Positions 2,428 through 4,393 of a stretch of DNA of 64,000 bases are shown here, piece after piece. How positions within the stretch are numbered: position 1 is the first letter of the stretch; each line of letters begins with the position of its first letter. The translations under genes were made by a program, and so were the position numbers. Source of the DNA: Natronomonas gomsonensis (GTDB lineage: Archaea > Halobacteriota > Halobacteria > Halobacteriales > Haloarculaceae); NCBI RefSeq assembly GCF_024300825.1, contig NZ_CP101323.1, positions 2,480,001-2,544,000 of the forward strand. Direction: 5' to 3'. The notes below the pieces were generated by a model. The model worked only from the letters and a program-made list of their open reading frames with translations. It was not told the DNA's origin and did no database searches.

Positions 2428-2608
2428 GCGGTGTGTGCCCGAGCGAGCGGTCGGTCAGAACCCCGGTTCGATCGTGCCGACCGATCACTACACAGGCTGA
2501 TGGACACGTACCCGGTGTGCCGGAGATACGATGTCCCACCGTCCAGCCCCGCCGGTGGTGGTGTACTCCTACACAACATTGAAATACCGAAACGTGACCA
2601 CCGCCGGT

Positions 2609-3325
2609 ATGCCGACGACGACGATCATCGGTGACTGCAACGTCTACGTCGATGGATCACGAGAGAGTCACCAGCGCGGACGCATGCTAACTGTCGTCAA
2701 GCCCGACGACACCGTCCTCGTCCACGACGCCGACGGCTACCAGCCCATCGCGTGGCTCACCCGCCCCGCGGATCTCTCGCTGACCAGGGAGCCGTTGTGG
2801 CTGGTCGCCACCGACGGTCAGGAGACGCTTCGCATCGAGGCTGCCGGCGAGGTGGCCGTGACCGAACACGAGGTGAGCGAAGCCGGTACGCCGGTCGGTA
2901 CGTGTCGCTGCGGCGGCCAACTGATTCGTTCCGGTGGGGCCGTTCTCTGCCTCGACTGTGCCGAGCGTTACTCGCTTCCCTCGGGCGCGTCGACGCTCGA
3001 TTCGGCCTGCGACTGCGGACTCCCCTTGTTTCGAGTCCAACGCGGCGCCGACTTCGAGTTGTGTCTGGACTACGAGTGTGGGTCGCTGCTCGACGCCGTG
3101 GTCGAGCGCTTCGACCGGGAGTGGACCTGCCCGAACTGCGATGGTGACCTCCGTGTTCTCAGACGTGGCGGACTCATCGCCGGCTGTGAGAACTACCCCG
3201 ACTGCGACACCGGGTTCTCGATACCCGACGGAACGGTCGCCGGAAGGTGTGACTGCGGACTTCCACGGTTCGAGACGGCCGGCGGAGAGCGGTGTCTCGA
3301 CTCCGGATGCGGCGCTCCGCCCTGA
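2609..3325 (+). CDS. NucS-N-domain-like protein with four C4 zinc fingers
   Basis: I choose the ATG at 2609 (238 aa). An AT-rich TATA-like element about 27 bases upstream suggests a leaderless transcript. Residues 1-55 (MLTVVKPDDTVLVHD, then GYQPIAWL) resemble the N-terminal DNA-binding domain of NucS/EndoMS nucleases. The rest holds four cysteine clusters (C99/101/114/117, C134/136/152/157, C174/177/193/199, C214/216/229/234) like topoisomerase C-terminal C4 fingers. The NucS nuclease domain is absent. A role in DNA binding is likely; catalysis is not supported. Confidence 0.7.
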   Translation: MPTTTIIGDCNVYVDGSRESHQRGRMLTVVKPDDTVLVHDADGYQPIAWLTRPADLSLTREPLWLVATDGQETLRIEAAGEVAVTEHEVSEAGTPVGTCRCGGQLIRSGGAVLCLDCAERYSLPSGASTLDSACDCGLPLFRVQRGADFELCLDYECGSLLDAVVERFDREWTCPNCDGDLRVLRRGGLIAGCENYPDCDTGFSIPDGTVAGRCDCGLPRFETAGGERCLDSGCGAPP

Positions 3326-3385: not shown

Positions 3386-4393
3386 ATGGAAGGACACCTC
3401 ACCGACGGCGTCGTCGAAGTCGGCGCCAACGGCCGCGAGCGCTACTACGACTCTCGCGGCTACGGCCGCCCCCGGGGAGAGGGAGTGGCTCTCTCCCGCG
3501 TCGAGGCTGCCCACCTCCTCTATCGCGGGGACCTCGATTCGGTCGACGGCGAGGCCTTCGCCGGCTTCCTCACCGAACACGACGACATCGTCGTCGACTT
3601 CCTCGTCTACCGGGACCTTCGGGACCGGGGGTTCTATCTCTCGGTCGCCCGCGAGGAGTGGGTCGACGCCGACGAGGCGGTGGACTTCGTCGTTCACCCA
3701 CGCGGGGACGGGCCGTGGGACGGCTCTGTCGAACACCGGGTTCGCGTCGTCGGCGAGCGGGCGTCCGTCGAACTCACGGCGCTCGGCGATGTCGTCTTGG
3801 CGGTCGTCGACGAGGAAAGCGAAATCACGTATCTCGAAACCGACGCTCCCGATGTCACGGGCTCCAGCGACCTCGCTCTCGACGACACTGTCGAGGGGGT
3901 CCTACTCGATGACCGAGTGCTCTGTTGGGACCCACCCGAACCGCTCTACGAGCACGGCTTCTACGGCCAGCGGATGGGTCGCGACGACGACACGCTCCAG
4001 TTGTCGCTTCTGGAGGCCGCCCATCTGGTCGAGACGGACGTTCTCTCGATTGCTGGCGGCACCGAGGCGGTCACCGAGCGCGGCCGGGCCGTCGAAGGCG
4101 AGCGGTTCGACCGTCGTCTGACGGTGTATCGGGAACTCCGACGGCGGGGCGTCGTCCCGAAAACCGGCTTCAAGTTCGGTGCGGATTTCCGAACCTACGC
4201 CGACGTGGAGTCGGTTGATGACCTCGGTCACTCTGAGTTGCTCGTTCGCGTGTTACCGGCGGATACCGAACTGTCGCCGCGGGATTTAGCGCTCGACGTT
4301 CGGTTGGCTCACGGCGTCCGGAAACGGATGGTGTTCGCGCTCGTCAAAGACGGAACGGTGACGTGGCGGTCGGCCGCACGGCTGACGCCCTGA
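3386..4393 (+). CDS. endA: tRNA-splicing endonuclease EndA
   Basis: A 335-aa protein made of two tandem endonuclease units, the haloarchaeal homodimer-type arrangement. The C-terminal unit has the catalytic set: Tyr271 in ADFRTY, His282 in GHSEL and Lys313 in VRKRM. The N-terminal unit (about residues 1-150) keeps the fold but not the triad. The enzyme cuts bulge-helix-bulge motifs in tRNA introns and in archaeal pre-rRNA. Two such motifs occur in this window, around the 16S and 23S genes. The convergent downstream neighbour is a tRNA methyltransferase gene, also for tRNA maturation. Confidence 0.93.
   Translation: MEGHLTDGVVEVGANGRERYYDSRGYGRPRGEGVALSRVEAAHLLYRGDLDSVDGEAFAGFLTEHDDIVVDFLVYRDLRDRGFYLSVAREEWVDADEAVDFVVHPRGDGPWDGSVEHRVRVVGERASVELTALGDVVLAVVDEESEITYLETDAPDVTGSSDLALDDTVEGVLLDDRVLCWDPPEPLYEHGFYGQRMGRDDDTLQLSLLEAAHLVETDVLSIAGGTEAVTERGRAVEGERFDRRLTVYRELRRRGVVPKTGFKFGADFRTYADVESVDDLGHSELLVRVLPADTELSPRDLALDVRLAHGVRKRMVFALVKDGTVTWRSAARLTP

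Follow-up and report, generated by a model that had tools for sequence, protein, structure and literature searches.

The window analysed here is a stretch of 64,000 nucleotides from the genome of Natronomonas gomsonensis, and close to one end it contains a gene, which we call NZ, whose product combines a domain of the NucS_N family with four putative zinc ribbons (Table 1). A scan of named genomes retrieved 57 relatives, all haloarchaeal by record title, which together with the window protein form an alignment of 58 sequences, and the start codon of NZ is consistent with these homologues. NZ is a real gene. The initial annotation, made from the sequence of the window, had described a NucS DNA-binding domain followed by four C4 fingers and devoid of a nuclease, an architecture borne out by the Pfam assignment, by the structural match to EndoMS and by the presence of 16 invariant cysteines.

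Table 1. Features of the NZ locus, in positions of the window.
Feature	Position	Strand	Basis
TATA-like box TTGAAATA	2579..2586	+	-30 to -23 from ATG; 53 homologous upstream regions
Conserved element	2596..2600	+	around -13 to -9, consensus GGCCA; 53 upstream regions
NZ gene (238 aa), NucS_N and four putative zinc ribbons	2609..3325	+	ORF, Pfam, homologue alignment, model
NucS_N (EndoMS N-terminal-like) domain, residues 1-89	2609..2875	+	Pfam, alignment, structure match
Putative zinc ribbon 1, Cys 99/101/114/117	2903..2959	+	58/58 conserved
Putative zinc ribbon 2, Cys 134/136/152/157	3008..3079	+	58/58 conserved
Putative zinc ribbon 3, Cys 174/177/193/199, most topoisomerase-like	3128..3205	+	58/58; Pfam
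Putative zinc ribbon 4, Cys 214/216/229/234	3248..3310	+	58/58 conserved
endA, tRNA-splicing endonuclease	3386..4393	+	both tRNA-intron-endonuclease domains; directly 3' of NZ

The region upstream of NZ was compared across 53 non-redundant sequences, leaving aside L051 (no ATG found), L044 (ambiguous start) and near-identical rows. A TTTAAATA box occupies positions -30 to -23 relative to the ATG, with T-30 conserved in 96%, T-29 in 87% and A-27 in 89% of the sequences, followed by a second conserved block, about CCGCGGCCA, at -17 to -9, in which the C at -11 is present in 98%. These positions support a putative promoter of the leaderless type, as for leaderless haloarchaeal mRNA, and the leaderless transcript proposed in the initial annotation is consistent with the location of the box. 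The adjacency to endA was also correctly recognised, as the next gene encodes both tRNA-intron-endonuclease domains, and endA lies directly downstream of NZ in 55 of the 57 named loci, the two misses being L025, which ends just past NZ, and L043, which shows no endA.

A 34-codon remnant of the 5' part of NZ is present outside the window, 10.4 kb upstream (G000:C1:2472085-2472186; L059:1501-1602, L154:2586-2687). The region upstream of it is the ancestral one (93% identity to Natronomonas gomsonensis), and the first part of the intact NZ has diverged, being 76% identical to the remnant. Between the two copies lies a cluster for a CO-dehydrogenase-like molybdenum hydroxylase, together with moeA and mobA (window part 605-2427), so this segment entered at the 5' end of NZ.

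The N-terminal domain of NZ is matched by PF21003 (NucS_N) over residues 6-89 (E-value 7.2e-8, 32.7 bits against a cut-off of 23.9). Full-length NucS models match NZ in the N-terminal part only and far under their cut-offs, the NCBIfam NucS model giving 34 bits against a cut-off of 216, and PF01939, the RecB-like nuclease, has no match in NZ, where residues 97-238 are occupied by the putative zinc ribbons. In the AlphaFold model of NZ (mean pLDDT 83.8), a structure search superposed the predicted residues 1-91 on EndoMS (5gkj_B) with Z 11.9, rmsd 2.2 and 90 aligned residues, and the best match outside NucS/EndoMS reached Z 6.9. The assignment of the N-terminus to NucS therefore stands, with no sign of unrelatedness in the structure search, but the domain is nearer 90 residues than the 55 first proposed. 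Residues invariant in all 58 sequences include C10, K31-P-D, H39-D, G43-Y-Q-P, W49 and T51-R.

In the C-terminal part, all 16 cysteines, arranged in four C4 groups, are invariant in the 58 sequences. The topoisomerase I ribbon model PF01396 recognises finger 3 only, and does so under its cut-off (25.7 against 32). As the structure search with the whole model covered well only residues 1-87, a separate model of the finger array was made (pLDDT 87) and used as a query of its own; its best structural match is human TOP3B. This match is weak (Z 4.7, rmsd 3.5, 75 aligned residues; Foldseek E-value 0.27), and, together with the fully conserved cysteines, it agrees with the earlier suggestion that the fingers are of the kind found in topoisomerases.

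A profile of NZ (A1), built from 56 of the 58 proteins, was searched against 391 Halobacteria genomes and also against 294 genomes from across the phylum, where outside Halobacteria it matched two kinds of large protein. In seven genomes of family f12, which we take to be 'Hikarchaeia', the whole finger array is found at the C-terminus of a Ski2-like helicase (E-values 2e-40 to 5e-37). One of these helicases (G391) has 979 amino acids and DEAD, Helicase_C and Sec63 domains, and all 16 NZ cysteines are aligned at its C-terminus. Used as a query, the f12 helicase splits in the window genome into two matches, residues 4-761 corresponding with 46% identity to a helicase that we call helB, and residues 836-978 corresponding with 43% identity to NZ. 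The helicase gene of G391 diverges from a neighbouring endA-type gene, beyond which lies a class-I W/Y tRNA synthetase, a relative of which is present downstream of the haloarchaeal NZ in 45 of 57 loci. In family f19, presumably 'Methanocella', two helB orthologues (47-48% identity) carry a NucS_N domain that passes the Pfam cut-off, and then an HRDC domain resembling that of RecQ DNA helicases. The domains of NZ are in this way divided, with fingers only on the helB of f12 and NucS_N plus HRDC only on that of f19, and none of the four non-haloarchaeal helB proteins found combines NucS_N with the four fingers. Two genomes of f19 (G398 and G425) encode a free NucS_N plus HRDC protein (L128:1186-2028 and L130:1261-2070) and no helB, which indicates that the tail can exist without helB.

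The initial annotation had considered NZ as a decoy, a targeting subunit or a mismatch sensor. The fold of the EndoMS N-terminal domain and the invariant W49 (58/58) speak for such a role linked to NucS, be it as a sensor of mismatches or branches, a targeting subunit or a decoy, but three lines of evidence make it very improbable. First, of the positions named as base-binding in PMC6829318 (Y41, R44, N76 and W77 in Tko EndoMS), the Y-R-N-W set is complete in 14/14 NucS and in none of 10 sampled NZ proteins, which retain the W in 10/10, the Y in 2/10 and the R or N in 0/10; at these positions the f19 helicases have Y-R/K-N-Y. Second, a maximum likelihood tree of 28 NucS_N domains separates the 10 NZ and 4 helicase or tail domains from the 14 NucS domains with support of 99/98, and each of the three sets holds together as a group; as this tree has no root and covers a short domain, calling NZ the sister of the helicase tails assumes a root outside that side. 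Third, of the 12 genomes among 145 that have no NucS, 10 carry NZ, a phylogenetic profile that fits a mismatch role poorly. The decoy and the mismatch sensor are both disfavoured on these grounds, and a NucS-linked function was rejected as the main reading. The idea of a targeting subunit fits the data better, although the target would be a helicase rather than NucS.

The true NucS of the window genome is encoded tail to tail with a gene that by eye is mutS-like (L062:1057-2142 and L062:2151-3119), so that both mismatch systems adjoin at one locus. Some genomes of family f2 have two NucS-like proteins (L084 and L085 in G010; L087 in G012), one beside mutS-like DNA and the other beside a ribonuclease-HII-like gene (names given by eye), and the latter kind forms its own branch in the NucS_N tree.

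In the window genome, helB is a separate gene (at C1:2224620) whose 788-aa product ends without a tail, and full-length matches to helB occur in 386 of the 391 Halobacteria genomes. The Hel308 model gives helB 382 bits against a cut-off of 887, and the Hel308 of the same genome reaches 1192. Two Pfam models exceed their cut-offs on helB, SNRNP200_wHTH for the Brr2-type winged helix (39 against 27) and Sec63 Brl (51 against 25); the model for the Hel308-type winged helix does not. Calculated per cassette, the phmmer bit scores of helB with Slh1 (259/265) and ASCC3 (230/271) are close to that with Hel308 (248), and Slh1, ASCC3 or Brr2 score about equal to Hel308; the view that helB is nearer to Brr2/ASCC3, derived from whole-chain phmmer scores, was dropped, because Slh1 and ASCC3, having two cassettes, match twice. 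The type of helB was therefore taken from the domain models, which assign it to the Ski2-like helicases of the Brr2/ASCC3 type and not to Hel308. Hel308 was likewise rejected as the partner of NZ, since the helicase in the fusions is a different one by family cut-offs and domains. The Haloferax HVO_0136 was also rejected as helB, as the two papers listed with this tag concern translation initiation.

With these domains and scores, helB could be viewed as an archaeal equivalent of Brr2/ASCC3/Slh1, with NZ as its Rqt4/TRIP4-like zinc-finger partner, the pair remodelling RNA-protein complexes or stalled ribosomes. The neighbours of NZ, endA and the W/Y tRNA synthetase, are RNA- and translation-related, and TOP3B is the best match of the finger array. 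Nevertheless, we consider this reading unlikely, given that NucS_N binds DNA in EndoMS, that the f19 HRDC is RecQ-like, that Slh1 and Brr2 have two cassettes where helB has one, and that no domain was found in common between Rqt4/TRIP4 and NZ. Rqt4/TRIP4 presumably include an ASCH domain, and neither this family nor the C2HC5 or PWI-like families appear on NZ in the Pfam listing at E-values up to 10. In PMC9938168, Rqt4/TRIP4 are described with a C2HC5 zinc finger and a PWI-like domain, and the yeast RQT complex as Slh1 with Cue3 and the zinc-finger protein Rqt4.

Across the 391 Halobacteria genomes, the NZ profile matches at E-values of 1e-30 or lower in 377, spread over the families, and of the remaining genomes 12 have weak matches only and 2 have none; NZ is near-universal in this class. 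The 377 include reduced or broken cases: in G361 (L169:4524-5021) only NucS_N and a single finger are left, the NZ of G338 looks the same, and in G302 there is only the last third of the gene, with two in-frame stops. A strong NZ match is missing in 9 of the 386 genomes with helB. No traces of NZ were found near the intact endA of G002, G129, G180, G183, G293 and G340, all of which have helB; G183 is a sister genome of G361 and, like G361 and G338, belongs to g12, G293 has a transposase-like gene (by eye) at the place of NZ, and G340 a HAD-like gene (by eye) between helB and endA. Three losses are less certain, because G304 is fragmented, the endA of G377 is at a contig end and that of G389 was not found. 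The absence of NZ from genomes that carry helB indicates that NZ is dispensable in some lineages.

The two genes are nonetheless associated in both occurrence and position. All 5 Halobacteria without helB are also without NZ (391 genomes; hypergeometric probability 2.7e-8, ignoring kinship), and this value is inflated by kinship, as the joint losses fall in few lineages, 3 of the 5 in family f11 and another in a genome that is 85% complete. No strong NZ match without helB was found among the 377 NZ-positive Halobacteria. Pairing by hand was carried out in 94 genomes, among the best-scoring matches listed for both genes, and in 70 of these helB is within 10 kb of NZ, with about 0.6 expected, and within 3 kb in 41. 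In all 70 of the former, helB is upstream, and in 68 it is on the same strand; in 8 of the 94 the two genes are unlinked, including 4/4 from the genus of the window. In the named loci, which have flanks of at most 6 kb, helB is observed in 20 of 57, always upstream and in 19 cases on the same strand; in L152 the gap between the two genes is 39 bp.

This pattern bears on the possibility that NZ is a free-standing binder of single-stranded or branched nucleic acid that serves several helicases or topoisomerases, or endA, and not mainly helB. Such a role would agree with the helB-less tail proteins of G398 and G425, with the frequent position of NZ nearer to endA than to helB and with the loss of NZ where helB is kept, but we regard it as quite unlikely, considering that none of 391 genomes has a strong NZ match without helB and that both domain types of NZ are found fused to helB.

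We propose instead that NZ is probably the detached C-terminal nucleic-acid-binding tail of helB, working as an accessory subunit, a reading suggested by the sequence comparisons. The four ribbons would once have been part of the helicase tail and would now be provided by a separate gene, NZ, in the service of helB, to which its product would bind. The NucS_N barrel, of whose mismatch pocket only the stacking tryptophan is consistently kept, and the Top1-type ribbons would hold single-stranded or branched nucleic acid, and this grip would load or aim helB. The process involved would most likely be a DNA transaction, such as the processing of forks or recombination intermediates; we favour DNA over RNA, as this is the substrate of NucS_N, Top1-type ribbons and RecQ-like HRDC domains in known proteins. 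Against a helB tail stand the genomes in which helB is kept without NZ, the tail proteins of G398 and G425, which occur without helB, and the unlinked position of the two genes in the genus of the window. More tentatively, and with somewhat less than even confidence, the data may point to an undescribed helicase machine of haloarchaea and two neighbouring lineages, formed by a one-cassette Ski2 helicase of the Brr2/ASCC3 type and a mobile grip module, in which a mismatch reader without its pocket was turned into a helicase clamp, in parallel to the RQT/ASC-1 design. The module would then occur fused, split or rebuilt, as helicase with NucS_N and HRDC, helicase with four ribbons, NucS_N with four ribbons, and NucS_N with HRDC.

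If the helB-tail reading holds, a near-universal haloarchaeal gene gains a concrete and testable partner and role, the reader domain of EndoMS is seen to be reused beyond mismatch cutting, and a second Ski2-like helicase is brought in for haloarchaea. A pair acting on DNA would join the enzymes of recombination and gene conversion of the polyploid haloarchaeal cells, and a pair acting on RNA or ribosomes could reveal an archaeal root for the ASCC3/Slh1 design. A search of the open PubMed Central subset found nothing in print on helB, NZ, a link to a helicase or a function. The consulted part of a review of repair in Haloferax volcanii lists Hel308 and Hef and does not mention a second Ski2-like helicase (PMC7776575). 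Two archaeal 'topoisomerases' had been noted in 2017 to contain a stand-alone NucS N-terminal region (PMC5290159), and the part of that work cited here gives them no helicase link or function.

The systems to which NZ and helB can be compared each share some of their parts. With RQT/ASC-1 (Slh1/ASCC3 with Rqt4/TRIP4) they have in common a Ski2-like helicase of the Brr2 type and a separate zinc-finger protein, but NZ-helB, known here from sequence only, has another type of zinc finger, another companion domain and one cassette. Hel308 and helB share the Ski2-like core and the helix-hairpin-helix, whereas helB has neither domain 4 nor the winged helix of the Hel308 type and falls under the family cut-offs. 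Tandem C4 ribbons are common to NZ and to the C-terminus of type IA topoisomerases (PF01396; TOP3B 9cah), and finger 3 also has their CPxC...GC.nYPdC pattern, but NZ is without the topoisomerase core, and fingers 1, 2 and 4 are of CxC types missed by the Pfam model. With the N-terminal domain of EndoMS/NucS (PF21003; 5gke, 5gkj, 2vld), NZ shares the fold and the KPD...H core, its W49 being equivalent to the stacking W77; in contrast to EndoMS/NucS, it has no nuclease, does not keep Y41, R44 and N76, occupies its own branch of the tree and is present in the absence of NucS. The helB proteins of the two other families also share parts with NZ, that of f12 carrying the same four ribbons and that of f19 a NucS_N domain of the same subgroup, whereas haloarchaea encode helB and NZ separately.
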